64,000 bases of DNA from NCBI RefSeq assembly GCF_900096945.1, contig NZ_FMKA01000002.1, positions 124,001 through 188,000 on the forward strand, read 5' to 3'. The translations under genes were made by a program, and so were the position numbers. This document shows positions 36,871 through 62,157 of this stretch, piece by piece. Numbering within the stretch: position 1 is the first letter of the stretch; each line of letters starts with the position of its first letter. This stretch comes from Anaerobium acetethylicum (GTDB lineage Bacteria; Bacillota; Clostridia; Lachnospirales; Lachnospiraceae). Below the pieces are notes generated by a model, which was given only the letters and a program-made list of their open reading frames with translations, was not told the DNA's origin and ran no database searches.

Positions 36871-37716
36871 ATGAAAAAGATTTTAGTTACAGGAAGTAAT
36901 GGACAGTTAGGAAGAGCTATTAATAAGGTGTTCGAAGGAAATAATGAAATTGAGATAGTAAATACCGATGTGGCAGAACTTGATATTACAAGTATTGATG
37001 CAACAATGGCATTTGTGAAAAATATCAGGCCATATGCAATCATAAACTGTGCGGCACATACAGGGGTTGATGCTTGTGAAACAGATATCGAAAATGCATA
37101 TAAAATAAATGCGATCGGACCAAGAAACTTAAGCATAGCGGCCACTGCTGCTGGTGCTAAAATAGTTCATGTATCAACAGACTATGTGTTTGAGGGGAAT
37201 GGAACCAGGTCATATACGGAATTTGATGCGACGAACCCGCAGGGGGTGTATGGAGCAACAAAACTTGCCGGAGAGAATTTTGTGAAGGAATTCTCAAAAG
37301 AATATTTCATCATTCGAACTGCATGGCTTTATGGGGATGGTAAAAATTTTGTAAAGACAATGCTCCGACTTGCAGAAACGAATGATAAGGTAAGGGTAGT
37401 AGGAGATCAGTTTGGTTCCCCTACAAGCACTGCAGAATTAGCAAGGATGATCGCACATCTTTTGCCAACGGAAAACTATGGTCTGTTCCACGGAACTTGT
37501 GAAGGCAGCTGCAGCTGGGCTGATTTTGCAAAAGAGATATTCAGACAGGCAGAGAAAAACACAGAGGTTGAAGCAATTACAACGGCAGAATATCCGACGC
37601 CAGCAAAGAGACCGGCATACTCCGTTTTAGATAACTTCATGCTTAAACTCACAACAGACTTTACATTTGCACAGTGGCAGGATGCGCTGACGGAATATAT
37701 GAAAGAGCTTGTGTAA
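36871..37716 (+). CDS. rfbD: dTDP-4-dehydrorhamnose reductase
   Basis: The protein of 281 residues has the Rossmann motif VTGSNGQLGRAINKV, the SDR catalytic pair in YGATKLAGE and STDYVFEGNG. It makes the last step to dTDP-L-rhamnose using NAD(P)H. It is separated from rfbB, rfbA and rfbC by three AT-rich genes with their own promoter, an arrangement that suggests insertion of the GT2/DUF2304 block into an rfb cluster. Confidence 0.95.
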   Translation: MKKILVTGSNGQLGRAINKVFEGNNEIEIVNTDVAELDITSIDATMAFVKNIRPYAIINCAAHTGVDACETDIENAYKINAIGPRNLSIAATAAGAKIVHVSTDYVFEGNGTRSYTEFDATNPQGVYGATKLAGENFVKEFSKEYFIIRTAWLYGDGKNFVKTMLRLAETNDKVRVVGDQFGSPTSTAELARMIAHLLPTENYGLFHGTCEGSCSWADFAKEIFRQAEKNTEVEAITTAEYPTPAKRPAYSVLDNFMLKLTTDFTFAQWQDALTEYMKELV

Positions 37717-37778
37717 ACTATTTGATCGAGGAAGTGATGGGATAATCATGGACCTGGTATTCTGCGTAAAAACCGATA

Positions 37779-37807
37779 TTGACCTTTAGTATAAAAATTA
37801 GTATACT
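37779..37807 (+). promoter_or_regulatory. Strong promoter for the GT2-DUF2304-GT2 block
   Basis: TTGACC (37779-37784), a 17-base spacer and TATACT (37802-37807). Confidence 0.7.
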
Positions 37808-37816
37808 TATTGATGT

Positions 37817-37846
37817 TTGAATTTCTAAGGCTTCAAAGGTTATAAT
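37817..37846 (+). promoter_or_regulatory. Second, tandem promoter for the GT2-DUF2304-GT2 block
   Basis: TTGAAT (37817-37822), an 18-base spacer and TATAAT (37841-37846). It would start transcription about 35 bases before the ATG at 37888. Confidence 0.5.
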
Positions 37847-37887
37847 AGGAAATCGAAATGTAAAGGATGAGAATGAGGAGACATTAC

Positions 37888-38610
37888 ATGAATATATTAA
37901 TAATAATACCTGCATATAATGAAGAAGGAAACATTGTGCGGGTAGTGGAAAATTTGAAGAGCAATTATTCGGATTACGATTATATTGTGGTTAATGACGG
38001 ATCCAAAGATAATACTTCGAAGATATGCCATAATAATAATTACAATATTATTGATCTGCCTGTGAATTTAGGGCTGGCAGGTGCGTTCCAAACCGGTCTT
38101 AAATATGCATATTTAAAAGGATACGACTATGCGATCCAGTTTGATGCAGATGGACAGCATCGTGCAGAATTTATTAAGACCATGTATGGCGAAATAAAAA
38201 AAGGATATGACATTGTAATTGGATCCAGATTTTTAGATGAAAAGAAGCCAAAATCACTGCGTATGCTAGGCAGTAATATGATATCAAAAGCGATAAAAAT
38301 GACAACGGGTGTAAGAATTCAGGATCCGACTTCGGGAATGAGGATGCTGAACAGAAACCTGATCCGGGAATTTGCGGTTAATCTGAATTATGGTCCAGAG
38401 CCGGATACGATATCCTATCTGATAAAACAGGGCGTAAAAGTATCCGAAGTTCAGGTGAGTATGGACGAACGAATCGAAGGAGAAAGTTATCTGACTTTTT
38501 CAAGGTCGATGAAATATATGTTGAGGATGATCATTTCCATTGTATTTATCCAGAATGTCAGAAGAAGAGACAAACGATTTGTTAGTGAGAGTGGAGGACA
38601 GAGCAAATGA
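37888..38610 (+). CDS. GT2 glycosyltransferase, DPM1/polyprenyl-phosphate-sugar synthase-like
   Basis: The protein of 240 residues starts MNILIIIPAYNEEGNIVRVV after GAGGAG (start moved from 37867). It has the GT-A motifs VVNDGSKDNTS and QFDADGQH, then DPTSGMRMLNRNLI. This is the DPM1-like group that loads a sugar from a nucleotide onto a polyprenyl phosphate. It lacks obvious membrane segments. The following DUF2304 gene overlaps it by four bases, a pairing common in surface-glycan loci. Confidence 0.85.
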   Translation: MNILIIIPAYNEEGNIVRVVENLKSNYSDYDYIVVNDGSKDNTSKICHNNNYNIIDLPVNLGLAGAFQTGLKYAYLKGYDYAIQFDADGQHRAEFIKTMYGEIKKGYDIVIGSRFLDEKKPKSLRMLGSNMISKAIKMTTGVRIQDPTSGMRMLNRNLIREFAVNLNYGPEPDTISYLIKQGVKVSEVQVSMDERIEGESYLTFSRSMKYMLRMIISIVFIQNVRRRDKRFVSESGGQSK

Positions 38611-38948
38611 CAGTAGTATTTAGAATCGTATTGATTGTTGCATCTATTGCAACGGCATATTTTATGCTGAAAAAAATACAGCAGTCAAAAGTGAAGATTG
38701 AGGATTCTATATTTTGGATCTTGTTTTCCGTGATGCTGATTGTTCTGTGCATAGTTCCGCAACTGGCGGATTTTATGGCAAAACTTCTTGGGATTAAATC
38801 CACGGTGAATTTTATATTCCTATTTATTATTTTCTTGTTACTGATAAAAAACTTTTTGCTTACAATTAAGATGTCCCAGCTTGGTCATAAGACGGAAGAA
38901 TTGATACAAAAAATTGCAATTGATGAAAAGTTAAGGGAGAAAGAATAA
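38607..38948 (+). CDS. DUF2304 small membrane protein
   Basis: The protein of 113 residues has three hydrophobic segments (VVFRIVLIVASIATAYFML, ILFSVMLIVLCIV, FIFLFIIFLLLIKNFLL) and a charged C-terminal helix. This matches DUF2304, typically found beside DPM1-like GT2 genes and thought to anchor or assist them. It overlaps the GT2 gene before (ATGA) and touches the next (TAATG), so the three are translated as a unit. Confidence 0.82.
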   Translation: MTVVFRIVLIVASIATAYFMLKKIQQSKVKIEDSIFWILFSVMLIVLCIVPQLADFMAKLLGIKSTVNFIFLFIIFLLLIKNFLLTIKMSQLGHKTEELIQKIAIDEKLREKE

Positions 38949-39775
38949 TGAAGCAGCCGATGATAAGTATATGTATCCCGGCATACAACAATGAGGGGTT
39001 TATTAAAGAAACAATAGAATCGATTCTGAATCAGACATATAAGAATTTTGAACTGATTGTTGTGGACGACAAATCCCGGGATAACACTGTAAAAGTAGTT
39101 GAAGATATTAAAGATGCACGTATAAAATTGGTTAAGAATGAAAAGAACTTAGGTATGGTAGGAAATTGGAACAGGTGTCTTGAGCTTGCCAATGGAGAAT
39201 ATGTTAAACTGATATGCGCAGATGATATTCTGTACCCGGATTGTGTTGCAAAAGAAGTAAAAGTCCTTGAACATTATCCGAATGTTAACATGGTTGTCAG
39301 CAATACTGCATTAGTCAACAATGATGGAAAAAAAACAGGCGAATTCAGACGATATTTCAAAAAAGGTGTTGTGAAAGGGAAAGAAGTTGTAAAAATGTCT
39401 TTGCTGATCCAAAACTTTTTTGGAGCACCGGTCAATACAATGTTCAGGAAAAAAGCACTTGAAAAATCCGGTAAATTTGATATCGATTTTACCTACATAT
39501 TGGATTTTGATTTATGGATCAGGATAGCAGCTTTGGGAGATATCTATATACTGAAGGAAACTTTGAATGGCTTTAGAATCAGAAATGATTCCAATACAGG
39601 GATGCTTATAAATACAAAACAGGATGTTTACGTTGATGAGCATAAGAGGCTTTTAGAAAAGTATATGCGGCTTGGAACAGTTAAATTTACAAAGTTTGAT
39701 TATAAGTTAAGCATTTTTATCAGAAAGATAAGAAACAGAATGATTAACGTGTACTTGAAATGCTTTGCAAAATAG
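38948..39775 (+). CDS. GT2 family glycosyltransferase
   Basis: The protein of 275 residues has the GT-A start ISICIPAYNNEGFIKETIESILNQTYKNFELIVVDDKSRDNTV and the acceptor-side motif LICADDILYPDC. It probably adds a sugar to the growing glycan in the cytoplasm. The sugar and linkage cannot be read. The gene is AT-richer than the rfb genes on either side, which hints at separate ancestry. Confidence 0.85.
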   Translation: MKQPMISICIPAYNNEGFIKETIESILNQTYKNFELIVVDDKSRDNTVKVVEDIKDARIKLVKNEKNLGMVGNWNRCLELANGEYVKLICADDILYPDCVAKEVKVLEHYPNVNMVVSNTALVNNDGKKTGEFRRYFKKGVVKGKEVVKMSLLIQNFFGAPVNTMFRKKALEKSGKFDIDFTYILDFDLWIRIAALGDIYILKETLNGFRIRNDSNTGMLINTKQDVYVDEHKRLLEKYMRLGTVKFTKFDYKLSIFIRKIRNRMINVYLKCFAK

Positions 39776-39794
39776 AGGGTTAAGTCATTAAACG

Positions 39795-39823
39795 TTGAAA
39801 TAACCAATATTAAATGATATAAT
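39795..39823 (+). promoter_or_regulatory. Promoter for rfbB
   Basis: TTGAAA (39795-39800), a 17-base spacer and TATAAT (39818-39823), about 45 bases before the ATG at 39868. Confidence 0.8.
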
Positions 39824-39867
39824 GTTACAAAAATATGAACAAGATAAGAATATTTGGAGGAAATGTA

Positions 39868-40944
39868 ATGAGAACTTATTTGGTAACAGGCGGAGCGGGA
39901 TTCATCGGATCGAACTATATTCACTATATGTTCAAGAAATACGACAATGAAATCAGAATCATCAACGTAGATGCGTTGACCTATGCAGGAAATCTGGAAA
40001 ATCTAAAAGAAGTAGAAAATAGAGACAACTATACGTTTGTCAAAGCCGATATCCGTGACAAGGAAGCAATCGGAAAGATCTTCGCAGAAAACAACATTGA
40101 CCGCGTTGTGCATTTTGCAGCAGAGAGCCATGTGGACAGAAGTATCCGCAACCCTGAAGTGTTTGTGGAAACCAACGTTTTAGGAACCCTTGTGATGTTA
40201 AATGAAGCAAAAAAAGCATGGGAACTGGAAGACGGAAGCTTCAAAGCTGACAAGAAATTCCTTCATGTATCGACAGACGAAGTTTACGGATCATTAGAGG
40301 AAGAAGGAACATACTTCTATGAAACGACTCCGATCGATCCTCACAGCCCTTATTCGGCAAGCAAGGCATCATCCGACATGCTTGTGAAGGCTTATATAGA
40401 TACCTACAAATTCCCGGCGAACATCACCAACTGCAGCAACAACTACGGTCCTTACCAGTTCCCGGAAAAACTGATTCCGCTTATCATCAACAACGCACTG
40501 CAGGGCAAGAAGCTTCCTGTATACGGAGATGGAAAGAACGTAAGAGACTGGTTATACGTTGACGATCATGCGAAGGCAATCGATATGGTTACGGAAAAAG
40601 GCAGACTTGGAGAAAGATATAATGTCGGCGGACATAACGAAAAGCAGAATATCGAAATTATCAACATCATTATAGAAACATTGCAGGAAATGCTTCCTGA
40701 AAATGATCCGAGACGTGCACATGTAACAACAGACCTTATTACTTATGTAGAAGACAGAAAAGGCCATGACAGAAGATATGCAATTGCTCCTGACAAGATT
40801 AAAGAAGAAATCGGCTGGGAACCTGAAACAATGTTCAAAGAAGGCATCAGACTTACAATCAAATGGTTCTTCGAAAATGAGGATTGGATGAAGAACGTCA
40901 CAAGCGGCGATTACCAGAAATATTATACAGAGATGTACAAATAA
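39868..40944 (+). CDS. rfbB: dTDP-glucose 4,6-dehydratase
   Basis: The enzyme of 358 residues starts MRTYLVTGGAGFIGSNYIHYMF after TTTGGAGGAAATGTA (start moved from 39835). It shows the NAD-binding GxxGxxG, the STDEVYGSLEEEG catalytic region and the YSASKASSD Tyr-x3-Lys pair. It makes dTDP-4-keto-6-deoxyglucose, the second step to dTDP-rhamnose. Confidence 0.97.
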   Translation: MRTYLVTGGAGFIGSNYIHYMFKKYDNEIRIINVDALTYAGNLENLKEVENRDNYTFVKADIRDKEAIGKIFAENNIDRVVHFAAESHVDRSIRNPEVFVETNVLGTLVMLNEAKKAWELEDGSFKADKKFLHVSTDEVYGSLEEEGTYFYETTPIDPHSPYSASKASSDMLVKAYIDTYKFPANITNCSNNYGPYQFPEKLIPLIINNALQGKKLPVYGDGKNVRDWLYVDDHAKAIDMVTEKGRLGERYNVGGHNEKQNIEIINIIIETLQEMLPENDPRRAHVTTDLITYVEDRKGHDRRYAIAPDKIKEEIGWEPETMFKEGIRLTIKWFFENEDWMKNVTSGDYQKYYTEMYK

Positions 40945-40965
40945 TTATCATAAGAAAACGTCGAC

Positions 40966-40988
40966 AGCAGTATCCTCGTGGTACTGCT
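40966..40988 (+). promoter_or_regulatory. Hairpin between rfbB and rfbA
   Basis: AGCAGTA and TACTGCT pair perfectly around a 9-base loop; only AGTTTACG follows, so full termination is unlikely. It may set the relative amounts of rfbB and rfbA transcript. Confidence 0.5.
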
Positions 40989-41021
40989 AGTTTACGTTAA
41001 AGAAAGCAGGAGGTTCTATTC

Positions 41022-41891
41022 ATGAAAGGTATTATATTAGCAGGCGGTTCAGGAACTAGATTGTATCCATTAACAAAGGCGATTTCAAAGCAGATCATGC
41101 CGGTTTATGACAAGCCGATGATCTATTATCCATTATCTACTCTGATGCTTGCAGGAATCCAGGATATTCTGATTATTTCAACACCAAGGGATTTACCTGT
41201 TTTTGAAGAATTGTTCGGAACAGGGGAACAGTTGGGACTGCGCATGTCCTATGCAGTGCAGGAATCCCCGAGAGGACTTGCAGATGCATTTATTATTGGT
41301 GAGGAATTTATCGGAGACGACAATGTGGCACTGGTGCTTGGAGATAATATTTTCTACGGCCAGAGCTTCTCGAAAGTACTGAAGAATGCAGCTTCAAGAG
41401 AAACAGGAGCTACCATCTTCGGTTATTATGTAAAGGATCCAAGAGAATACGGCGTAGTTGAATTCGATGAAGAAGGAAAAGCATTATCGATAGAAGAAAA
41501 ACCAGCTGATCCAAAATCAAACTATGCAGTACCGGGACTTTATTTCTATGACAACGACGTAGTTGAGATTGCGAAGAACGTGAAGCCGTCAGCGCGCGGG
41601 GAAATCGAAATCACAAGCATCAACAACGAATATTTAAGAAGAGGAACTCTTCATGTTGAAACATTAGGACGCGGATTCGCATGGCTGGATACAGGAAACC
41701 ATGATTCCCTCCTTGATGCAGCTGATTTCGTGGCTGCATTCCAGAAACGCCAGGGATTATACATCTCCTGTATCGAAGAGATAGCTTACAAGAGAGGCTT
41801 TATTACAAAAGAACAGCTTCTTGAACTTGCGCAGCCATTATTAAAGACGGAATACGGACAGTATCTGGTAGATGTTGCAAACGGACTTTAG
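41022..41891 (+). CDS. rfbA: Glucose-1-phosphate thymidylyltransferase
   Basis: The protein of 289 residues has the nucleotidyltransferase signature [23 protein letters not shown], the metal-binding [10 protein letters not shown] and [20 protein letters not shown]. It forms dTDP-glucose from dTTP and glucose-1-phosphate, the entry step to rhamnose. The length is normal and GCAGGAGGTTCTATTC precedes the ATG. Confidence 0.97.
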
Positions 41892-41964
41892 GATATCAGG
41901 AAGTCGCTGGCTGATGAAACTGCCAGTGCATCAAAACAATCAACATGGAAAGAGGTAATTGAAA

Positions 41965-42522
41965 ATGGGTCAGATAACAGTAGAAAAATGTGAGATAGAA
42001 GGATTAATGGTCATTGAACCAAAAGTATTCGGAGATGAAAGAGGATACTTCATGGAAACTTATAATTACAACGATTATAAGGCAGTTGGAATCGACCAGA
42101 ATTTCGTGCAGGACAACCAGTCAAGCTCAATAAGAGGTGTTTTGAGAGGCCTTCACTTCCAGAAGGATTTTCCACAGGACAAGCTTGTAAGGGTTGTCAG
42201 CGGAGAAGTATTTGACGTTGCAGTCGACTTGAGACCAGGCTCTGAAACTTTCGGAAAATGGTACGGGGTTATCCTTTCAGCAGAAAACAAAAAGCAGTTC
42301 TTCATTCCAAAGAATTTTGCACACGGCTTTGTCGTGTTGTCGGAATCGGCTGAATTTGCTTATAAATGCACGGATTTCTATCATCCAAACGATGAAGGCG
42401 GACTTTTATGGAATGACCCTGAAATAGGGATTGAATGGCCGATACCGGCAGACATGGAACTTGTAATTTCTGAAAAAGACCAGAAATGGGACGGAATCAA
42501 AAAAACTTTCGGAACAAAATAG
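41965..42522 (+). CDS. rfbC: dTDP-4-dehydrorhamnose 3,5-epimerase
   Basis: This cupin-fold enzyme of 185 residues has the signature VQDNQSSSIRGVLRGLHFQ with its active-site His, and IPKNFAHGFVVLSESAEFAYKCTDFYHP. It performs the double epimerisation before RfbD. The ATG at 41965 has AGAGGTAATT upstream; the track start is a TTG six bases earlier. Confidence 0.96.
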   Translation: MGQITVEKCEIEGLMVIEPKVFGDERGYFMETYNYNDYKAVGIDQNFVQDNQSSSIRGVLRGLHFQKDFPQDKLVRVVSGEVFDVAVDLRPGSETFGKWYGVILSAENKKQFFIPKNFAHGFVVLSESAEFAYKCTDFYHPNDEGGLLWNDPEIGIEWPIPADMELVISEKDQKWDGIKKTFGTK

Positions 42523-42723: not shown

Positions 42724-43512
42724 ATGAATATTATTAAAGATATATTTAAAAACAGGAAACTGGTCTTATATCTGTCAAAAAATGATTTTAAGACCAAGTA
42801 TGCCGGATCATACCTTGGAATAATCTGGGCTTTTGTACAGCCCTTAATTACAATACTGCTTTACTGGTTCGTGTTCCAGGTAGGATTAAGATCTCAGAAC
42901 GTCGGCGAGATCCCTTTCGTTCTATGGCTGATGGCAGGACTGATACCGTGGTTCTATTTTTCGGAATCGGTGATCAATGGGACAAACTGTTTCCTGGAAT
43001 ACAGCTACCTTGTAAAAAAGGTTGTATTCGACATCAAGGTGCTCCCTATCGTCAAGGTCATCTCTTCCCTTTATGTGCACGCCTTTTTCATCGCCCTTTT
43101 GGTTGTGGTATATACGGTAAGCGGAAGGTTCCCGGGACTGATCGCCATACAGCTGCTGTACTACACCCTGTGCATGATCATGCTTTCCCTTTCGCTGGTG
43201 TATTTCACATCAGCAGTTGCTATATTTTTTAAGGATGCGACGCAGCTCATCAATATCTTCATGCAGATCGGAGTCTGGATGACCCCTATTATGTGGAATA
43301 TTGCAATCATAAAGGGAAACCTGCTTTATGTGTTCAAGGCAAATCCGATGTATTATGTTGTGGAAGGCTACAGGGACACTATGATCAATGGAATCTGGTT
43401 TTTTGAAAAACCGTCTCTGACTGTCTATTTCTGGGTGTTTGTACTGGTCATGCTGATTTTCAGCAAATATGTATTCACCAGGCTGAAACCGCATTTTTCT
43501 GATTCTTTATAA
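42724..43512 (+). CDS. wzm: Polysaccharide ABC exporter, membrane subunit (Wzm/TagG/RgpC-like)
   Basis: The protein of 262 residues has six membrane segments and the ABC-2 polysaccharide-export pattern: FKTKYAGSYLGIIWAFVQPLITILLYWFVF, then IFMQIGVWMTPIMWN. It moves a lipid-linked glycan across the membrane with the ATPase encoded next. The location just after the rhamnose genes points to a rhamnose-containing polymer. Confidence 0.92.
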   Translation: MNIIKDIFKNRKLVLYLSKNDFKTKYAGSYLGIIWAFVQPLITILLYWFVFQVGLRSQNVGEIPFVLWLMAGLIPWFYFSESVINGTNCFLEYSYLVKKVVFDIKVLPIVKVISSLYVHAFFIALLVVVYTVSGRFPGLIAIQLLYYTLCMIMLSLSLVYFTSAVAIFFKDATQLINIFMQIGVWMTPIMWNIAIIKGNLLYVFKANPMYYVVEGYRDTMINGIWFFEKPSLTVYFWVFVLVMLIFSKYVFTRLKPHFSDSL

Positions 43513-43547
43513 TCGCGGCAGAATAAGAAAGGATATTGTGTAAAAAT

Positions 43548-44855
43548 ATGAGCGAGATAGCTATTAATATATCAAGTGTTTCCAAGGTTTATAAATTATA
43601 CGACAAGCCTACACTCAGGCTGAAGGAAGCCCTGAGCTTAAGCGGCAGGAAATACCATAAGGATTTTCCGGCGCTCCATGATGTGAGCTTTGATGTTAAA
43701 AAAGGTGACATGCTTGGAATCATCGGCAAGAACGGTGCGGGAAAGTCGACCCTCCTGAAGATCATCACGGGAGTCCTCTCTCCTTCAGGCGGAAACGTGG
43801 AAATCAACGGAAAGATTTCTGCCCTGCTTGAACTTGGAGCAGGCTTTAATCCTGAGTATACGGGAATTGAAAATATTTATCTGAATGGCCAGATGATCGG
43901 CTTTACCCGCGAGGAGATGGATAGCAAAATAGAGGATATCGTAAAATTTGCCGACATTGGGGATTTTGTATACCAGCCGGTCAAGACTTATTCAAGTGGT
44001 ATGTTTGCGCGTCTGGCATTTGCCGTTGCAATCAATGTAGAGCCTGACATCCTGATCGTGGATGAGGCTTTGTCAGTCGGAGACGTGTTCTTCCAGGCGA
44101 AATGCTACAAGAAGCTTGAAGATTTCAGAAACAGCGGAAAGACCATCCTCCTGGTTACCCATGACATGGGCAGCGTCATAAAATACTGCAACCGCGCCGT
44201 AATCATCAATGGCGGGGAAAAGATTGCCGAAGGCAGCCCTGTGGATATGGTCGATCTCTATAAGAAGATCCTGGTAGGCCAGTATGACGCATCGGAAGCG
44301 GAAGAAAACGAAGATTCAGAGGGTGCAGGAAAAGCAGGAACCAGCATCGATGAATTCGGACTGAAGGAAGGAAGCAGCTGGAAGGATTACATGCTGATTA
44401 ACCCGAATAACGTGGAATACGGAGACAGGCGCGCATCCATCATCGACTTCGGTATTTTCGATGACGAGGACCAGATTACGAATACTGTCTATAAACTCAG
44501 GAAATTCACCCTGAAACTGAAAGTGAAGTTCAATGAGGAGATTGAAAATCCGATTTTTGCGTTCAGCATAAAGGACATCAAGGGAACCGAAATTTCAGGT
44601 ACGAACACGATCATCGAAAAGGTGGATACGGGAATCGTCAAAAAGGGCGAAACCATTGAAATCGCCTTCAGACAGAAGATGATTCTGCAGGGAGGTCAGT
44701 ATCTCCTTCAGCTGGGATGTACGGGATTTGAAAATGACGCCCTTGTCGTGTTCCACAGACTGTATGACATTTGCTGTATAAGCGTCATTGCCGACAAGAC
44801 CACAGTGGGCTACTGTGATATGGATTCAAAAGTGACCTATAGGAAGGAGGATTAG
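43548..44855 (+). CDS. wzt: Polysaccharide ABC exporter, ATPase with C-terminal carbohydrate-binding domain (Wzt-like)
   Basis: The protein of 435 residues has an ABC domain in residues 1-240 (Walker A IGKNGAGKSTLLKII, signature YSSGMFARLAFAVA, Walker B ILIVDEALSVGD). An acidic linker follows, then a beta-rich Wzt_C-like domain (about 290-430, RKFTLKLKVKFNEEIENPIFAFSIKD). In Wzt systems that domain reads a modification at the end of the glycan chain before export. ATG 43548 is preferred over the TTG at 43536 used by the track. wzm lies 35 bases upstream. Confidence 0.92.
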   Translation: MSEIAINISSVSKVYKLYDKPTLRLKEALSLSGRKYHKDFPALHDVSFDVKKGDMLGIIGKNGAGKSTLLKIITGVLSPSGGNVEINGKISALLELGAGFNPEYTGIENIYLNGQMIGFTREEMDSKIEDIVKFADIGDFVYQPVKTYSSGMFARLAFAVAINVEPDILIVDEALSVGDVFFQAKCYKKLEDFRNSGKTILLVTHDMGSVIKYCNRAVIINGGEKIAEGSPVDMVDLYKKILVGQYDASEAEENEDSEGAGKAGTSIDEFGLKEGSSWKDYMLINPNNVEYGDRRASIIDFGIFDDEDQITNTVYKLRKFTLKLKVKFNEEIENPIFAFSIKDIKGTEISGTNTIIEKVDTGIVKKGETIEIAFRQKMILQGGQYLLQLGCTGFENDALVVFHRLYDICCISVIADKTTVGYCDMDSKVTYRKED

Positions 44856-47989: not shown

Positions 47990-48901
47990 ATGCCGGAAAT
48001 GATAGGCAATGCCAAAATAAATGATCAGTTCTATAGCGGTGTCGATGGCTATAGCGACGGAGATATAGAAGACGAATTATTGAACCTTGTAACAAATAAT
48101 TCTGATGTCATGGAGATACTGGCAGCTGAAAAACGCTGGCCGATACTTTACCACCTTTCTCCCGTGCGCCAGAATATTTTAGAATGGTACCCGTTCCGGG
48201 AGGGGGCAGAAGTCCTTGAAGTAGGTTCCGGATGCGGAGCAATCACAGGAGTCCTCTGCCGCAAGGCAGGGCAGGTCACCTGCATTGAACTTTCAAAGAG
48301 AAGATCCCTGATTAACATCAACAGGAACAAGGAATATAGCAATCTGGAAATCATGGTGGGAAACTTCAATGACATCAGGCTCGATAAGAAATACGACTAT
48401 ATCACTCTTATTGGAGTCATGGAATATGCAGGCTACTACACTTCGTCGGAATCGCCTTTTGTCAGCTTCCTGGAAAACATCAAGAAGATGCTGAAGCCAG
48501 ATGGGAAACTCCTGATTGCCATTGAAAACAAATTCGGCCTGAAATACTGGGCGGGAGCAAGGGAAGACCATACAGGCGTGTATTTTGACGGGATCGAAGG
48601 CTACCATGCTACGGAGAGCCAGGTCAGGACTTTTTCAAAGGACGAGCTGACAAAGATCATCAGGGATGCAGGCTATTCGGCAATCGAATACTACTATCCG
48701 TTCCCGGATTACAAATTCCCGACGCAGATTTTCTCGGATGACTATATGCCAAAGGCAGATGACCTGATCTGCAGCCGTGACAGTTTTGACAACAGCAGGG
48801 TACATCTTTTTGATGAGACCATGGTTTACAAAAACATCATAGATGCAGATAAATTTGATTTTTTCTCCAACTCGTTTTTTGTTGAAGTTGGAATAGAATA
48901 G
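47990..48901 (+). CDS. SAM-dependent methyltransferase, N-terminal half of an apparently split gene
   Basis: The protein of 303 residues is a class I methyltransferase: the SAM loop is VLEVGSGCGAITGVLCRKA and the later motifs are YDYITLIGVMEYAGYY and LKPDGKLLIAIENKFGLKYW. It ends abruptly at FFSNSFFVEVGIE. In related proteins, as I remember them, the chain continues with the segment that opens the next ORF. It might methylate a sugar on the polymer, in line with the end-reading domain of Wzt. AGGAGGAGAATTGA precedes the ATG. Confidence 0.82.
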   Translation: MPEMIGNAKINDQFYSGVDGYSDGDIEDELLNLVTNNSDVMEILAAEKRWPILYHLSPVRQNILEWYPFREGAEVLEVGSGCGAITGVLCRKAGQVTCIELSKRRSLININRNKEYSNLEIMVGNFNDIRLDKKYDYITLIGVMEYAGYYTSSESPFVSFLENIKKMLKPDGKLLIAIENKFGLKYWAGAREDHTGVYFDGIEGYHATESQVRTFSKDELTKIIRDAGYSAIEYYYPFPDYKFPTQIFSDDYMPKADDLICSRDSFDNSRVHLFDETMVYKNIIDADKFDFFSNSFFVEVGIE

Positions 48902-48914
48902 GACGTGGACAACT

Positions 48915-50255
48915 GTGAAGAAAATATATGCTAAGTTTACAAAGGAAAGAGCAGAACAATTTCAGATTGAGACAGGGATTTATAGAACCGAGACAGGGAA
49001 GAAAGTCATCAAGATGCCTCTGAACGAAAAATGCGAAAGCCACATAAAGAGGATTCATGAGAATTATCAACGCTATAAGGAATGCGGCAATGACATGCTT
49101 GCACAAAGCAGGCCTTTTGGAAAAGGCGTAGAATTCGAGTTCGTGACAGGTACAAGCTTCTGTACCAACCTGCTGAAACTGGCAGACGCTGGTGTTAAGA
49201 AGGAGTTTTTGGAAAAGCTGGCATCCTATAAGGATTATGTTGTGGCTTCAGCCAACGGAACCATTGCCCGGTTTCAGGCGGGCGCAGAGTTCGACGGTGT
49301 GTTCGGCACCCAGGATGGTCTGGAGAACAAGCAGGCGGGTAATAATCTTAATATCGATATGACCTTTGATAACATGATCGAGACTGCAGACGGCGGTATC
49401 AAGGTGATCGATTATGAATGGATATTCAATTTTGCGATACCTGTGGATTTTATCATCTACCGTGCTGTTTTTGCATTCGGCATGAAATACGGCACCAAGC
49501 TGCACCATTTCATAACGCTGGAAGAGATGTACGGAGTTTTCGGAATCAGCCCGGAAGATACGGTCGTGTACAGTAAAATGAACAGAAAATTTGCGGATTA
49601 TGTCAATGGCGGAGTTTCCTCCTATGACAGCATCCTGGAGCAATACAAGAAGACGACTTATGATCTGGATGAAATCCTGCCCCAGTATGAGTATTTTGTA
49701 CAGCTGTTTATCAACACAGGGGAAGGCTATTCCGAAAAGCAGAGCATAAAGGTCCAGATCAAAGAGAACCAGGGGATGTTCGAGACAGTCTTCGATTTAG
49801 GCGCATATCAGGATATCAGGGAACTTCGCCTTGATCCACTGAACGTGCCTGCGGATATTGAACTGCTGGAAATGACTCTGACTGACGAAAATGGGATTTC
49901 CAGAAAACCGGAAAGCATGGAGCATAATGCGGAAATTTTCACCGGAAAGCGCTTTGTCATCAGAGATGCAGATCCGCAATTTCTTATTCCGAATGAAGCA
50001 GGCATCGCAATCAGGAGCATGCATGTGAAATACAGGTTTGTCCTGAAGGATCTGGAGAAATACGAGGAACATGTACACATCGTTGAAGAGATGCTGGAGA
50101 CGGAAATAAACAGCCTGGAATCTGAAATCAGCAGATTGAAAGCGGAAATTGAAGAAAAGAACAAACTGGCAGACGAGCTGGATTACATTAAAGAAACAAA
50201 AGTATTTAAGCTTCTTTTGGAAAAGAAAGTAGATAATTGCTTTAGGGGAAAGTGA
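48915..50255 (+). CDS. Kinase-like/coiled-coil protein, C-terminal half of an apparently split methyltransferase gene
   Basis: The protein of 446 residues starts at GTG 48915 in a different frame, 13 bases after the methyltransferase stop. Its opening VKKIYAKFTKERAEQFQIETGIY reads as the direct continuation of the upstream protein. NLNIDMTFDNMIETADG then VIDYEWIFNFAIPVDFIIYR looks like the metal-binding end of a phosphotransferase-type fold. The last 60 residues are a coiled coil (MLETEINSLESEISRLKAEI). I do not assign a reaction. GAATAGGACGTGG is a possible but weak ribosome site. Confidence 0.7.
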   Translation: MKKIYAKFTKERAEQFQIETGIYRTETGKKVIKMPLNEKCESHIKRIHENYQRYKECGNDMLAQSRPFGKGVEFEFVTGTSFCTNLLKLADAGVKKEFLEKLASYKDYVVASANGTIARFQAGAEFDGVFGTQDGLENKQAGNNLNIDMTFDNMIETADGGIKVIDYEWIFNFAIPVDFIIYRAVFAFGMKYGTKLHHFITLEEMYGVFGISPEDTVVYSKMNRKFADYVNGGVSSYDSILEQYKKTTYDLDEILPQYEYFVQLFINTGEGYSEKQSIKVQIKENQGMFETVFDLGAYQDIRELRLDPLNVPADIELLEMTLTDENGISRKPESMEHNAEIFTGKRFVIRDADPQFLIPNEAGIAIRSMHVKYRFVLKDLEKYEEHVHIVEEMLETEINSLESEISRLKAEIEEKNKLADELDYIKETKVFKLLLEKKVDNCFRGK

Positions 50256-50294: not shown

Positions 50295-52529
50295 ATGCTA
50301 AAAAAGTATTGTAATAACGGTAGACTGCTGATGGGAGCGATTTTCATACTGCTTACACTGGCAGGTACTTTTCTGGCAGTATATTCGAATCCGGATTTTA
50401 TTTTGAATAAGCACATTGAAACCGGAAAAGTTGAATCAAGAATGCAGCTCGGGGAACTGCATAAAGGTGGGGAAATCCGGCAGACATTTCTTTGCAGTAA
50501 AGACAGACTGCTGGGTTTTGATTTGTATTTTGGTACATTTTCGCGACAAAACGCAGGCAACATCCTGGTAACACTGAATAACAGGACAAAAGACGCAACA
50601 ATCGAATCCTGGAAGGTTGATTGCAATTCTTTGGGAGACAATGCATTTACCAGGTTTACCTTATCAGAGGTCCTTCACGGTGTAAAGGATGATCAGTTGG
50701 AAATTATTGTTACATCTGATACTGGAAAAGCTGGAAATGCGGTAACATTGTTCAAGTTTGAGGATGACAGCGTCTTTCAAGAAGCCAGGTTATATCAGAA
50801 TGGAACAGCGCTTAAAGGAACGCTGCTTTTCTCTGTAGATTACAGGGTCGACACCCTGAACTGGAACAATGTATCAGGGATGATGACTTATATTATGCTG
50901 ATAGCAGCAGCGGCTTTTCTGGCTGTATGCGGCATATACAGATTTTTTTCATCCGCAAAGGCAGTGGAAGCAGTCAGGAACATAGAGAAAAACAGGAAGA
51001 AAATCATCTGGCTGATTATCACGGCCGCTTTTCTGGTGTGTATCAGCATTGCTGGTGAGGCATTCTGTTCCCGGATCATAGAAGGGAAAGAAAATTCACT
51101 GGGGACTTTTTTTAATGTTTTCAGATGGTTGTTTATATTTACTTTTGAGATCATGCTGTATTTGTTATTCCTGTATTATAGAAAAGGCATAAAATCAGTT
51201 GAAATCCTGTTTTTTGCTCTAGTGCTTTCCATTGGCGGACTCTTTGCATGTACGCTTCCTGTAACGGGCGATGTGTCATGGGATGATAAGGTCCATTACA
51301 GCAACGCCCTGCAGATGTCGAATCTTGCGGATTATGTCTACAACCAGGCTGATATAGATGTGATCAATGTCAAATACCCTCGGACATTCAATATGAAGCA
51401 GGCACAGGAAAATATTGAGAAACTGAATGCTTCCTATAATGATAAGGGCGTATTATCCTCAAACAAGGAATATAAACTTTTTTACAATCACATCGGTTAT
51501 CTGCCGGCGGCCTTAGCTATAGGTATGGGAAGAATGATGAACCTGCCTTTTCAGTATCTGTTCCTATTTGGAAAACTGGGAAACCTGATTGTCTATGCAG
51601 CTGTATGCTGTTATGGAATGAAGAAACTAAAAGGTGGTAAGATACTGTTTGCAGTAATTGCCATGTTACCGGCGAACATTTATCTTGCGGCAAATTACAG
51701 TTATGATTTCTGGGTAACCGGATTTATCATGATGGGGACAGCGTATCTGATTAGTGAATTGCAGCAGCCCGATAAAAAGCTTGAGAAGAAGGATTTTCTT
51801 ATAATGCTTGGAGGATTTGTGATAGGAATGGGGCCAAAGGCCATATATTTCTGCATGGTGTTCCTCTGTATGCAACTGGGGAGAACGAAATTCAAAACAG
51901 AAAGACGGTTCAGGCAGTACAGAACTGCTGTTATATGTGCCAGTATATGCGTAGCGCTAAGCTTTTTATTTCCCCTTATATTTTCGGCAGGGGCAAATAT
52001 TAACGATATCAGAGGAGGGGCTGGCGTCGATTCAGCCGGGCAGATAAAATTCATAATCACTAATCCCGTGCAGTATACGAAAATATTACTGAGCTTCCTT
52101 GGAAACAGCTATCTGAACATAGTCAATGCCCCGAGGCTGATCGGTAATATGGGGTATCTGGGAGTAGGGAAATTTTCGGTTCTGGCCATTATTCTTATGG
52201 CAGTGGCTGCCTGTGCAGACCGAAACAGTTGTGATACCGGTGTACTGACACATCCATTTCGTCTGAGTGTGTTAGGAAGCGCTTTCATTACGGTATGTCT
52301 GATTGCAACGGCTCTTTATGTTTCCTATAATCCCGTCGCTTCTGAAGGGATAGGGGGATGTCAGCCAAGATATCTGCTGCCTCTTGTTTTTGTTGTGGCA
52401 TACTGTCTTGGCAGCGGGAAAATCAAATTCGTAATAAATAAGCGGTTAATCAACAGTCTGCTGCTTGCCGCTTCAGGCAGCCTTCTATTATATGAATATT
52501 GGTCTGTGTATATCAGCCGGTATGTTTAG
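50295..52529 (+). CDS. DUF2142-like polytopic membrane protein, paralogue 1
   Basis: The protein of 744 residues has one N-terminal membrane segment, an extracytoplasmic beta-rich domain (about residues 35-185, REDOX-free and Cys-poor), then about ten membrane segments. LPVTGDVSWDDKVHYSNALQMS at the first large loop carries acidic residues where GT-C enzymes hold their catalytic Asp/Glu. DUF2142 proteins are predicted membrane glycosyltransferases. The next gene is a close paralogue. GAGAGGGGAGCAAA precedes the ATG. Confidence 0.75.
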   Translation: MLKKYCNNGRLLMGAIFILLTLAGTFLAVYSNPDFILNKHIETGKVESRMQLGELHKGGEIRQTFLCSKDRLLGFDLYFGTFSRQNAGNILVTLNNRTKDATIESWKVDCNSLGDNAFTRFTLSEVLHGVKDDQLEIIVTSDTGKAGNAVTLFKFEDDSVFQEARLYQNGTALKGTLLFSVDYRVDTLNWNNVSGMMTYIMLIAAAAFLAVCGIYRFFSSAKAVEAVRNIEKNRKKIIWLIITAAFLVCISIAGEAFCSRIIEGKENSLGTFFNVFRWLFIFTFEIMLYLLFLYYRKGIKSVEILFFALVLSIGGLFACTLPVTGDVSWDDKVHYSNALQMSNLADYVYNQADIDVINVKYPRTFNMKQAQENIEKLNASYNDKGVLSSNKEYKLFYNHIGYLPAALAIGMGRMMNLPFQYLFLFGKLGNLIVYAAVCCYGMKKLKGGKILFAVIAMLPANIYLAANYSYDFWVTGFIMMGTAYLISELQQPDKKLEKKDFLIMLGGFVIGMGPKAIYFCMVFLCMQLGRTKFKTERRFRQYRTAVICASICVALSFLFPLIFSAGANINDIRGGAGVDSAGQIKFIITNPVQYTKILLSFLGNSYLNIVNAPRLIGNMGYLGVGKFSVLAIILMAVAACADRNSCDTGVLTHPFRLSVLGSAFITVCLIATALYVSYNPVASEGIGGCQPRYLLPLVFVVAYCLGSGKIKFVINKRLINSLLLAASGSLLLYEYWSVYISRYV

Positions 52530-52609: not shown

Positions 52610-54832
52610 ATGTTAAAAAAGTTTGGCGGAAATAAGAATATATTAGTAGGGGCTGCGCTGATACTACTGACATTAGCAGGATCTCTTTTGGGCATCTATT
52701 CTAACCCGAGTTTCATTTTCAAGCAGAATAGAGATGCGGAATTGGGAACAATCACAAAGCCGGTTGGGGAGATCACAGAAGAATCTGAAATCAGACAGAC
52801 ATTTTTATGCGGCCAGGATAAACTGATGAGCATCGAACTGAATTTCGGTACTTATGAGAGGATAAACAGCTGCATACTCAATGTGACTCTGAGCAATGAA
52901 ACTGAAAACAGAGTGATTGAATCGTGGAAAGTTGACAGCAGTACAGTTGTAGATAACTCATTTTATACATTTACATTGGCGCAAATTCTTGAAGATGCTG
53001 AAGGGGACCAGCTGGAAATTGAAATCCAGTCTGATGATGGAAGCATTGGAAATGCAGTTACAGTGCTTATGGCAGATGATGATGATGGAAGAACCTTGTA
53101 TATGAACGGCGCGAAAATGGAAGCCGATCTTGCAATGTCTCTGAACTATAAGTCATACTCACTGGCATATGATAATCTGATTGGGCTGGCCGGCTACATT
53201 TTTTTTGTTCTGGTGATCGTATTATTGGCCCTGTTCAAATTATACAGACTCAATATACCTGCAAAACTTAAGAAAGTTCCCGGGTACATTGAAAAAAACT
53301 GGAACAGAATTTTAGTGCTGTTCGCTCTATTTGCTATCCTGCTTGTATCCAGCATAATAGCGGAATCGTTTGTCTCCCGCATAATAAAGGGCAGTGTGAA
53401 TTCACAGGGCAGCTATTTTAATGCTTACAGATGGTCGTTAATATTTGCTGTTGAGCTTGCTTTATATGTGATCTTTCTATATCGCAGGAATATCATCAGG
53501 TCAGTGGAAGTGCTTTTCCTTGCACTGATTTTATGTACAGGAGGCCTTTTTGCCTTTACGCTGCCTGTGGCAACTAATATTTCATGGGATGACCAGATCC
53601 ATTTCAGCAATGTGGTAAAACAGTCCTATCTGACAAACTGCAAGTACACGCAGACGGATTATGATATAATTGATATCAGGTATCCGACTACCTATAATAT
53701 GAACGAAGCAGAAGAAAACCTGAATAAAATGAAAGTATTGTACAATGACGAAATTGTGCTGTCCTTTGATAAAGACTACGGTATTTTCTATTCAAGTCTT
53801 GGGTATATTCCAACTGCACTTACCATGCGAGTGGCGAGAACGGTGGGTATTCCTTTTGGTTATGTGTTCGTTCTTGGAAAACTTGCAAATCTTGCAGTTT
53901 ATGCGGCATTATGTTTCTACGGTATGAAACGTCTAAAGTGGGGAAAAATGATATTCGCCATAGTAGCGCTCCTGCCGACAAATATTTTTATTGCTACTAA
54001 TTACACTTATGATTACTGGGTTATTGGCTTCATCATGCTCGGGATGGCATGTCTGATAGGAGAACTGCAGCAGCCGGATAAGAGACTGGAGAAAAGGGAT
54101 ATCGCAGTAATGTTCGGCTCCCTGTTTCTGGGAATGGGGCCAAAGGCGATTTACTTTCCGATGATATTTTTATGCCTCCTTCTGAACAAATCAAAATTCA
54201 AGACGGAAAAGCAGCACAGGCAGTACTGGCTGGCGGTTTTTGGCATCGCATTTTTTGTTGCACTGAGCTTTGTGTTCCCGTTTTTGTTTGCCGGAAAGGG
54301 CGGAAATGATTTAAGAGGCGGGACAGATGTCAATTCTATTGAACAGGTGAAGTTTATACTGTTCCATCCGCTTCAATATACCAAGATCCTGCTTCATTTT
54401 TTCTTTGCTGATTACTTCAATATTGCCAATGCAGCTAAAGCTACAAGTAATATGGCATATCTGGGACTTGGAAGCCTTTCGTCCATATCACTTATCCTGA
54501 TGACAATTGCGGCTTTCCTGGACCGAAACAGCATGGATAGCAGGATTTTGAACAGAAAATTCAGGATAGTCGTGTTGGGGTGTTTATTCATAACCGCATC
54601 ACTGATCGCCACCGCGATGTATGTTTCCTTTACGCCAGTTGCTTCAGATGTGATCAATGGATGCCAGCACAGATATCTGATGCCGATGATTTTCATTGCG
54701 CTTTACTGCTTTGGCAGCGGAAGGGTCGAAAACAGAATGAACAAAAGATCGTTTAACAGCCTGATGCTGACAGCCGCCAGTGGTGTGATATTTTATGAAT
54801 ACTGGGTAATGTGCATCAGTAAATATTTTTAG
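52610..54832 (+). CDS. DUF2142-like polytopic membrane protein, paralogue 2
   Basis: The protein of 740 residues matches paralogue 1 throughout: ILLTLAGSLLGIYSNPSFIF against ILLTLAGTFLAVYSNPDFIL, LPVATNISWDDQIHFSNVV, MGPKAIYFPMIFLC and the ending YEYWVMCISKYF. It arose by tandem duplication. The conserved WDD-x2-H motif suggests both copies keep the same chemistry, perhaps on different sugars or acceptors. It is 80 bases after paralogue 1, with AGAGGAAAAATGAG upstream. Confidence 0.75.
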   Translation: MLKKFGGNKNILVGAALILLTLAGSLLGIYSNPSFIFKQNRDAELGTITKPVGEITEESEIRQTFLCGQDKLMSIELNFGTYERINSCILNVTLSNETENRVIESWKVDSSTVVDNSFYTFTLAQILEDAEGDQLEIEIQSDDGSIGNAVTVLMADDDDGRTLYMNGAKMEADLAMSLNYKSYSLAYDNLIGLAGYIFFVLVIVLLALFKLYRLNIPAKLKKVPGYIEKNWNRILVLFALFAILLVSSIIAESFVSRIIKGSVNSQGSYFNAYRWSLIFAVELALYVIFLYRRNIIRSVEVLFLALILCTGGLFAFTLPVATNISWDDQIHFSNVVKQSYLTNCKYTQTDYDIIDIRYPTTYNMNEAEENLNKMKVLYNDEIVLSFDKDYGIFYSSLGYIPTALTMRVARTVGIPFGYVFVLGKLANLAVYAALCFYGMKRLKWGKMIFAIVALLPTNIFIATNYTYDYWVIGFIMLGMACLIGELQQPDKRLEKRDIAVMFGSLFLGMGPKAIYFPMIFLCLLLNKSKFKTEKQHRQYWLAVFGIAFFVALSFVFPFLFAGKGGNDLRGGTDVNSIEQVKFILFHPLQYTKILLHFFFADYFNIANAAKATSNMAYLGLGSLSSISLILMTIAAFLDRNSMDSRILNRKFRIVVLGCLFITASLIATAMYVSFTPVASDVINGCQHRYLMPMIFIALYCFGSGRVENRMNKRSFNSLMLTAASGVIFYEYWVMCISKYF

Positions 54833-59928: not shown

Positions 59929-60107
59929 GGGAGAGTTGTACCTGGCAGAAGACCAGACAATGTGGACAATACATTAAAAAAAGCGCATCCGTGTGGATAA
60001 AGAGCGGTATGGAGCCAGTAGTTATTTTATGAGTTCAGCATGCTTTGGGGAGCATGGGAAACAGGAAAAAATATAATCAGCAGTTAAGCAGTCCGGAGGT
60101 AGCATCT
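59929..60107 (+). promoter_or_regulatory. Intergenic gap before the amidase gene, with one hairpin
   Basis: I see no gene in these 179 bases. CATGCT-TTGGGG-AGCATG (about 60039-60056) is a perfect 6-bp hairpin. No convincing -35/-10 pair was found, and no terminator closes the glycosyltransferase operon, so read-through is possible. Confidence 0.4.
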
Positions 60108-62126
60108 ATGAAAAGTTTTAATAAAGTCTTATCTTTAGTATTAGCAATAGCCATATGTTTCAGCATGCTGGCAGTTCCAGCTTATGCATCAGGGACAGCC
60201 ACAGAGGTAAATAGCGGAATAATCGCCAGTGAAATCGCAATCGATTATATCTACGTGGAAAGTCCGGAGCTGACGGATTCAGGAATACAGAATATTCTTG
60301 TCAGTACCGATACGGAGCTGGCTGTACTGGAGAACGTGGGGTTAAGGGTTCAGAAAGACGGAAATGAAGTCGAGGTTTTGGAAGCAGACCAGAAAGCCGA
60401 CAACGTCCTTCTTTTTACAAGGGAATACAAGGAAGCAGAAGCAGGAAATTATAAGCTCCTGGGCATCACATACAGCCAGGATGGACAGAAATATGAAATC
60501 GGGATTACGGAGGAAGTCGGGTACTGCGTGAATGCAACAGCAGTGATGCCGGTTTCCGATTCCATCATAGAAGACACTGTAAGCGGGACCGCCGATGATA
60601 TTACAGGCGAAGCCATAGGCGAAGGCCTCAGCAATGCTGAGGAAATCATCGAAGTGCAGGAAGCTGTCGAGGAACAGGAAAAATCAGTGACAGAGGCCCA
60701 GGAGTCAGGAACTGCAGTAAATGCCGCAAGCGAACCTGTGATGCTGAAAGGGACGGGCAATGTGGTGGTCGTGCTGGATCCGGGCCATGGAGGTAGTGCC
60801 ACTGGTGCAGTGTACGGCGGACTCTATGAGAAAAACCTCAATCTGTCGATCGCGTTTTATATAAAGGAAGAGCTTGAAAAGTATGAAGGCATTGCCGTAT
60901 ATCTCACAAGAACCACGGATGTCGATGTAAGCTTCACAAACAGGGCAAATTTGGCAAAAAATGTTGGCGCCACATCTTTTGTCAGCATTCACATCAATGC
61001 ACTGGGAACCAGTACAGGAACTACAACAGCAGCAGGTGCAGAAGTCTTCGTAACCGGTTATACAGCCTTCAATGCAGGTTCTACCGATCTTGCAAACAGG
61101 ATTCTGGCAGAGCTTTCGAAAGTGGGCCTTTCCAGCAGAGGGGTCAAGATCAACAATGATGAAAATGGAAAATTCTATGACGACGGTACGCCCCAGGATG
61201 ACCTTGCGGTCATCAGATACAATATCCTGAATGGGATTCCAGCTATTCTCATAGAACATGGATTTATCAATAACGCACATGACTACAGCCTCCTTTCCAG
61301 CCCGACAAAGCTGAAGGAGATGGGAGTGGCGGATGCCACTGCAATCGCCCAGTATTACGGACTTTCAAGAAAGGGAGTACTGACGGAAGCCCAGCAGTCC
61401 CAGATCAGAAGCTTTGCTACGAGGCTTTATGAAAATGTGCTGAACAGGGAGCCGGAGACTTCGGGACTGGACTACCATTACAACAGACTAGCGACGGGAA
61501 GTGCAACCGGCGTGGATGTTGCGGAAGGCTTCGTGTTCAGTCCTGAATCCCTGAACAGGAATCTGGATGATTCCCAGTTTATCGAGATGCTCTACACGAC
61601 ATTCATGGACAGGGCATCCGACAGTGCAGGGATGAGCTACTGGCAGAGCGCTCTTGCTTCCGGAATGACGAGGAGAGGCATATTTGCAGGATTTGCTAAT
61701 TCAAATGAATTTACAAATATATGCCAGACCTATGGCATAAACAGAGGTACGGCAGCAGTAACGGAAGCAAGGGACCTGAATGCGGGAGTCACAAAATATG
61801 TATTCCGCTGCTATGAAAAGGCACTGGGCAGGACCGCAGAGGTCGACGGACTGAATTTCTGGTCAGAGCTGATTGTAAACAAAAGAATCACGGCCGAAGA
61901 AGCAGCCTGGGAATTTCTAACATCCGCTGAATTCCAAAACAAAGGTTATGTAGATGTGGATTATGTAAAAGTCTTATACAGTGTATTTCTTGACAGGGAG
62001 TGCGACGAGGCTGGACTGGTTTATTATATGGACAGATTGAATCGTGGAATCAGCAGGGAAGAGATATTTGATGGATTTTCAAATTCCCCTGAATTCCAGG
62101 GCCTCCTGGAGAGTTACGGTCTGTAG
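60108..62126 (+). CDS. Secreted N-acetylmuramoyl-L-alanine amidase with C-terminal DUF4214 module
   Basis: The protein of 672 residues starts MKSFNKVLSLVLAIAICFSM after GGAGGTAGCATCT, with a signal peptide cleaved near AYASG. An unknown N-terminal domain spans about 30-210. An Amidase_3 domain (about 220-415) follows with zinc ligands in VVLDPGHGG, the Glu of YEKNLNLS, SIHINA and the catalytic Glu of ILIEHGFINN. The last 240 residues are a DUF4214 module with repeated LNREP-type and NSNEFTNIC-type units. It cleaves the peptide stem from muramic acid in the wall. The track start (60045) was rejected. Confidence 0.92.
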   Translation: MKSFNKVLSLVLAIAICFSMLAVPAYASGTATEVNSGIIASEIAIDYIYVESPELTDSGIQNILVSTDTELAVLENVGLRVQKDGNEVEVLEADQKADNVLLFTREYKEAEAGNYKLLGITYSQDGQKYEIGITEEVGYCVNATAVMPVSDSIIEDTVSGTADDITGEAIGEGLSNAEEIIEVQEAVEEQEKSVTEAQESGTAVNAASEPVMLKGTGNVVVVLDPGHGGSATGAVYGGLYEKNLNLSIAFYIKEELEKYEGIAVYLTRTTDVDVSFTNRANLAKNVGATSFVSIHINALGTSTGTTTAAGAEVFVTGYTAFNAGSTDLANRILAELSKVGLSSRGVKINNDENGKFYDDGTPQDDLAVIRYNILNGIPAILIEHGFINNAHDYSLLSSPTKLKEMGVADATAIAQYYGLSRKGVLTEAQQSQIRSFATRLYENVLNREPETSGLDYHYNRLATGSATGVDVAEGFVFSPESLNRNLDDSQFIEMLYTTFMDRASDSAGMSYWQSALASGMTRRGIFAGFANSNEFTNICQTYGINRGTAAVTEARDLNAGVTKYVFRCYEKALGRTAEVDGLNFWSELIVNKRITAEEAAWEFLTSAEFQNKGYVDVDYVKVLYSVFLDRECDEAGLVYYMDRLNRGISREEIFDGFSNSPEFQGLLESYGL

Positions 62127-62157
62127 GAAAAAGTGACAGGAAGAGCAGGTGTATAAT

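Follow-up and report, generated by a model that had tools for sequence, protein, structure and literature searches.

Adjacent methyltransferase and kinase-like genes in a rhamnose-glycan export locus of Anaerobium acetethylicum: a probable two-gene chain terminator

Gene layout and genomic context

The window analysed here is a 64,000-nt stretch of the Anaerobium acetethylicum genome, in which a methyltransferase gene (here MT) lies 13 nt upstream of a gene encoding a kinase-like protein (here KIN) that is in the +1 frame relative to it. As listed in Table 1, the pair lies downstream of genes for dTDP-rhamnose supply, a Wzm-Wzt ABC exporter and a large glycosyltransferase protein; two DUF2142 proteins and GT2 glycosyltransferases are encoded on its 3' side. 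The C-terminal end of MT reads ...FFSNSFFVEVGIE, and KIN opens with VKKIYAKFTKERAEQFQIE. An earlier note on this DNA had given the ends and coordinates of both reading frames, the gap and the change of frame correctly. The junction bases come from a single draft assembly of 105 contigs, as the genomes searched included no further strain or species of the genus.

Table 1. Features of the MT-KIN locus (window coordinates).
Feature	Position	Strand	Basis or remark
rmlD, two GT2, rmlB, rmlA, rmlC (dTDP-rhamnose supply)	36871..42522	+	Pfam
Wzm ABC-2 permease	42724..43512	+	Pfam ABC2_membrane 8.8e-15
Wzt ATPase with C-terminal Wzt_C carbohydrate-binding domain	43536..44855	+	Pfam Wzt_C 7e-40, ABC_tran 1.3e-24
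Protein with two GT2 and WsaF-like rhamnosyltransferase domains, 1005 aa	44858..47875	+	Pfam WsaF_N 8e-65, WsaF_C 2e-48, GT2 x2
MT, class I SAM-dependent methyltransferase	47990..48901	+	303 aa, separate gene
MT stop codon TAG	48899..48901	+	junction table and alignment; position as in nearest relatives (FFVE.G.E, then stop)
Moderate SD-like region (AGGACGTGG) before KIN start, overlapping MT stop	48900..48914	+	-8.3 kcal/mol
KIN, kinase-like, Ig-like and coiled-coil protein	48915..50255	+	446 aa, GTG start, separate gene
KIN kinase lobe, residues 1-243	48915..49643	+	AF2 model, alignment, Foldseek
KIN beta-sandwich (Ig-like, CBM-like), residues 260-377	49692..50045	+	AF2 secondary structure; profile match to Pseudomonas homologue
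KIN long helix, predicted coiled coil, residues 380-427	50052..50195	+	AF2 model

When the KIN frame is read upstream of its GTG it yields NRTWTTVKKIY; the string RTWTTVKKIY given in the earlier note is thus correct as sequence, but a TAG at 48894-48896 closes the frame upstream of 48897. The MT and KIN frames are open together only at 48897-48898, and any shift between them must therefore fall within 48897-48901. The T6 run at 48875-48880 was also considered as a slippage site and rejected because both alternative frames reach a stop before KIN. The MT start is preceded by a strong SD sequence (-11.0 kcal/mol); the match before the KIN GTG is equalled by 6.7% of random window positions. At the homologous KIN starts of two near relatives (L024 and L025) a near-perfect SD, AAGGTGATCATC, with a value of about -14 is found in the same place, and an SD-like site precedes most split KIN genes in the family comparison. 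Because the MT stop lies so close to the KIN start, coupled re-initiation from the TAG to the GTG is likely.

Wzm and Wzt genes followed by MT and KIN were found in 19 of the 20 relatives examined, some with a glycosyltransferase protein between as in the window; the remaining one is on a short contig with Wzt alone upstream. In Citrobacter and on a Pseudomonas plasmid, wzm and wzt are followed by a single-chain homologue. Literature on glucorhamnan and Lachnospiraceae loci yielded nothing on the MT-KIN pair.

Domain composition and relationship to known terminators

MT matches the Pfam families Methyltransf_12, Methyltransf_23 and Methyltransf_11, and its AF2 model (pLDDT 91, pTM 0.91) is a complete class I domain with its final strand at residues 295-301; Foldseek matches of this model in the PDB are class I methyltransferases. 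KIN has no family match in Pfam or NCBIfam, and single-sequence and profile searches against PDB sequences returned only chance-level matches (IpaD, JAK1; E > 0.01), so that its assignment as a kinase rests on fold search and motif conservation. The KIN model (pLDDT 90, pTM 0.57, the arrangement between domains thus being less certain) resembles macrolide, aminoglycoside and choline kinases as well as protein kinases, with E values of 5e-6 to 1e-4, and the description of the second ORF as kinase-like in the earlier note is borne out by these matches. Since MT is complete through its last strand and KIN begins with the kinase lobe, whose first strand spans residues 2-8, the gene border is also a domain border. 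K33, D148, N153 and D166 are invariant in 26 homologues, as are E168 and W169 beside D166, at a mean column identity of 27%, a pattern suggestive of a functional site for ATP and metal. K33, D148, N153 and D166 would be the expected beta3 lysine, catalytic aspartate, metal-binding asparagine and DFG-like aspartate.

The closest described system is ORF6-O7 of Klebsiella pneumoniae, in which the N-terminal part, ORF6-O7-N, consists of a methyltransferase, an unannotated kinase, an Ig-like CBM and a coiled coil (PMC11231755, J Biol Chem 2024). With a mimic of the repeat unit of the O7 glycan, which ends in rhamnose, as acceptor, this protein adds first phosphate and then the methyl group; its kinase activity is abolished by the D441A substitution (PMC11231755). 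The MT-KIN pair has the same module order. Its second protein carries, like the kinase-fold domain of ~223 aa in O7, a fold without a Pfam family but with the invariant residues D148, N153 and D166, followed by the modelled Ig-like domain and coiled coil. Both systems also pair a rhamnose glycan with an ABC exporter, the window Wzt bearing the cap-binding Wzt_C domain. The two differ in that MT and kinase form one polypeptide in O7 and two ORFs in the window, and in that the O7 chain ends in GT2 modules whereas the KIN chain has no GT modules.

Homology to the O7-type terminators was traced through the single-chain Pseudomonas protein WP_024686765.1 and the published residue numbers. WP_024686765.1 has Y28, Y66, G91, G93, E112 and Y158 at the positions published for ORF6-O7 (PMC11231755). 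MT is 37% identical to it (4e-51), and the SAM-binding Y66, G91, G93, E112 and Y158 of ORF6-O7 have their counterparts in Y54, G79, G81, E100 and Y146 of MT, each numbered 12 lower. Residues 442-723 of the Pseudomonas protein (kinase and Ig-like region) are matched by the KIN profile with 40 bits, and D148 aligns with Pseudomonas D443 (D441 in O7); the match to the Citrobacter homologue is weak, at about 2 bits.

The E. coli O9a terminator WbdD joins a methyltransferase, a kinase and a coiled coil, and its cap is read by the carbohydrate-binding domain of Wzt (PMC3482155). It differs from the window pair in being a single chain, the described parts of which lack an Ig-like domain (PMC3482155). 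WbdD was not matched by the MT or KIN profile among PDB sequences, and the top 50 fold matches of each model did not include it; its mode of action is like that proposed here, with sequence kinship undetectable in profile searches. The WsaF domains of the window glycosyltransferase and the dTDP-rhamnose genes also recall the S-layer rhamnan system of Geobacillus stearothermophilus. That rhamnan is ABC-exported and carries a methylated end in a Gram-positive organism, and WsaE of the same system joins a methyltransferase to rhamnosyltransferases; WsaE is not known to have a kinase part.

Split and fused forms and the nature of the junction

Searches covered 61 and then 397 genomes, mostly or wholly from the family of the source organism, and found KIN homologues in 20 and 203 of them, respectively, the window's own genome included. 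With the KIN protein as query, the related-locus search of genome contigs gave no match because KIN diverges too fast. The nearest homologous pairs (L002, L021, L023, L024, L025 and L026) are all encoded by two separate genes. In these pairs the MT stop codon follows the same final strand (FFVE.G..), with ends reading FFVEAGMD, FFVEAGLR, FFVEIRKE, FFVEIGKE and FFIEISR compared with FFVEVGIE in the window, and with L023 terminating slightly beyond it; their KIN genes start with ATG, GTG or TTG at or just upstream of KKIY/KKIF. The frame between the two genes is 0, +1 or +2, as expected of two separately started genes. Among these pairs MT is much better conserved (64-69% identity) than KIN (about 34-38%), and this holds for split and fused forms alike.

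The proposal in the earlier note that the second ORF continues the first is correct in that fused homologues exist: L027, from the same subclade (MT 65% identical), is a single MT-KIN chain that reads ...SYFIEVGQKENKEFSKFTKERKEEFQIET... across both parts, and its open frame of 721 aa is close to the predicted ~750 residues. The alternative expectation, that homologues are two genes with their own ribosome sites, holds for the six nearest pairs but not throughout more distant relatives, as 27 of 42 MT-KIN pairs are split and 15 fused. Split and fused forms are intermingled across the MT tree, with at least 10 changes between them, at least 3 being forced by branches with >= 95% support; this event count is approximate because four long-branch rows (L007, L010, L015 and L048) are present in the tree. 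The kinship with single-chain proteins seen by the earlier note is therefore real, yet fission and fusion recur in the family and the arrangement is not damage to the window gene.

The junction is the normal border of two neighbouring genes in one operon, split at a domain boundary, and the "real gene split" offered in the earlier note is apt if taken to mean two genes whose counterparts form one chain in some relatives. Breakage of a single-chain gene by a recent frameshift mutation or a sequencing error, the latter being another option of that note, is very unlikely, even though a fused homologue occurs in the same subclade and the assembly is a draft. Each of the six nearest pairs is two genes, with MT ending and KIN beginning at the same places, and in three of them (L002, L024 and L025) the second gene lies in frame 0 behind a stop, for which no indel origin is possible. 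An indel in the window would also be restricted to 48897-48901, and a single chain here would need about five more linker residues than L027 has. Programmed +1 frameshifting at GGAATAGAATAGG (48890-48902), yielding both a fusion protein and the shorter MT, would have a suitably placed stop and a precedent in the natural fused forms, but it is exceedingly improbable: the ribosome would have to shift with TAG in the A site and GAA in the P site, where the Glu tRNA would re-pair only poorly with AAT at +1, the junction has no CUU-UGA-C-like or other slippery signal, and the varying frame relation in relatives excludes a conserved programmed shift. As a gene border the junction is ordinary; its moderate interest lies in the pair being a split version of a terminator described only recently. 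An apparent frameshift is thereby removed from the locus.

Proposed function

MT and KIN probably cap a rhamnose-containing surface polysaccharide before its export, and we consider with good confidence that they are the two catalytic halves of the chain terminator of an ABC-exported rhamnose glycan. The pair would thus be an O7-type machine made as two polypeptides. In such a machine KIN would phosphorylate the non-reducing terminal sugar and MT would methylate the phosphate so added, possibly within a single complex; the Ig-like domain of KIN may hold the glycan, its coiled coil may set chain length and form the oligomer, and export would follow recognition of the capped end by the Wzt_C domain. 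An alternative with two genes is that MT alone caps the glycan, as the methyltransferase does in E. coli O8, with KIN serving as a non-catalytic scaffold and molecular ruler. Such a role would fit the far greater divergence of KIN between close relatives and its absence from Pfam and NCBIfam, but it is unlikely given that the putative active-site residues, including E168-W169, are invariant at so low a mean identity, and that the aspartate equivalent to D148 is needed for kinase activity in the O7 homologue (PMC11231755).

The chain-terminator assignment provides a likely function for two genes, one of which, KIN, is without a Pfam or NCBIfam model. The ORF6-O7 orthologues named so far are from proteobacteria and cyanobacteria, all with the three parts together (PMC11231755); if the assignment is correct, methyl-phosphate capping of the O7 type extends beyond these groups. 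On balance, though by a modest degree of confidence, we favour a widespread two-subunit methyl-phosphate terminator in which MT and a kinase-ruler are made separately and assemble, and whose modules have repeatedly been fused and split within one bacterial family. The natural fused and split forms offer a ready system in which to ask whether control of glycan length requires the two activities to be tethered.

Several further features of these loci were observed. In many relatives (L056 (G116), L061, L063, L064 and L037) the KIN open frame is extended by a GT2 glycosyltransferase, an arrangement shared with Klebsiella ORF6-O7, and four module layouts occur in the family: MT|KIN, MT-KIN, MT|KIN-GT and MT-KIN-GT. 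In the window, the two DUF2142 membrane proteins directly behind KIN are in tandem (50295-52529 and 52610-54832; 744 and 740 aa). The neighbouring amidase_3 and GHL10 glycosyl hydrolase proteins (60045-62126 and 62149-63939) have four DUF4214 matches each, and DUF4214 is perhaps a cell-surface repeat tied to the glycan of the pair. One genome, G018, carries two diverged MT-KIN pairs on separate contigs (L002 on G018:C111 and L021 on G018:C281), suggesting either two capped glycans or mixed assembly.
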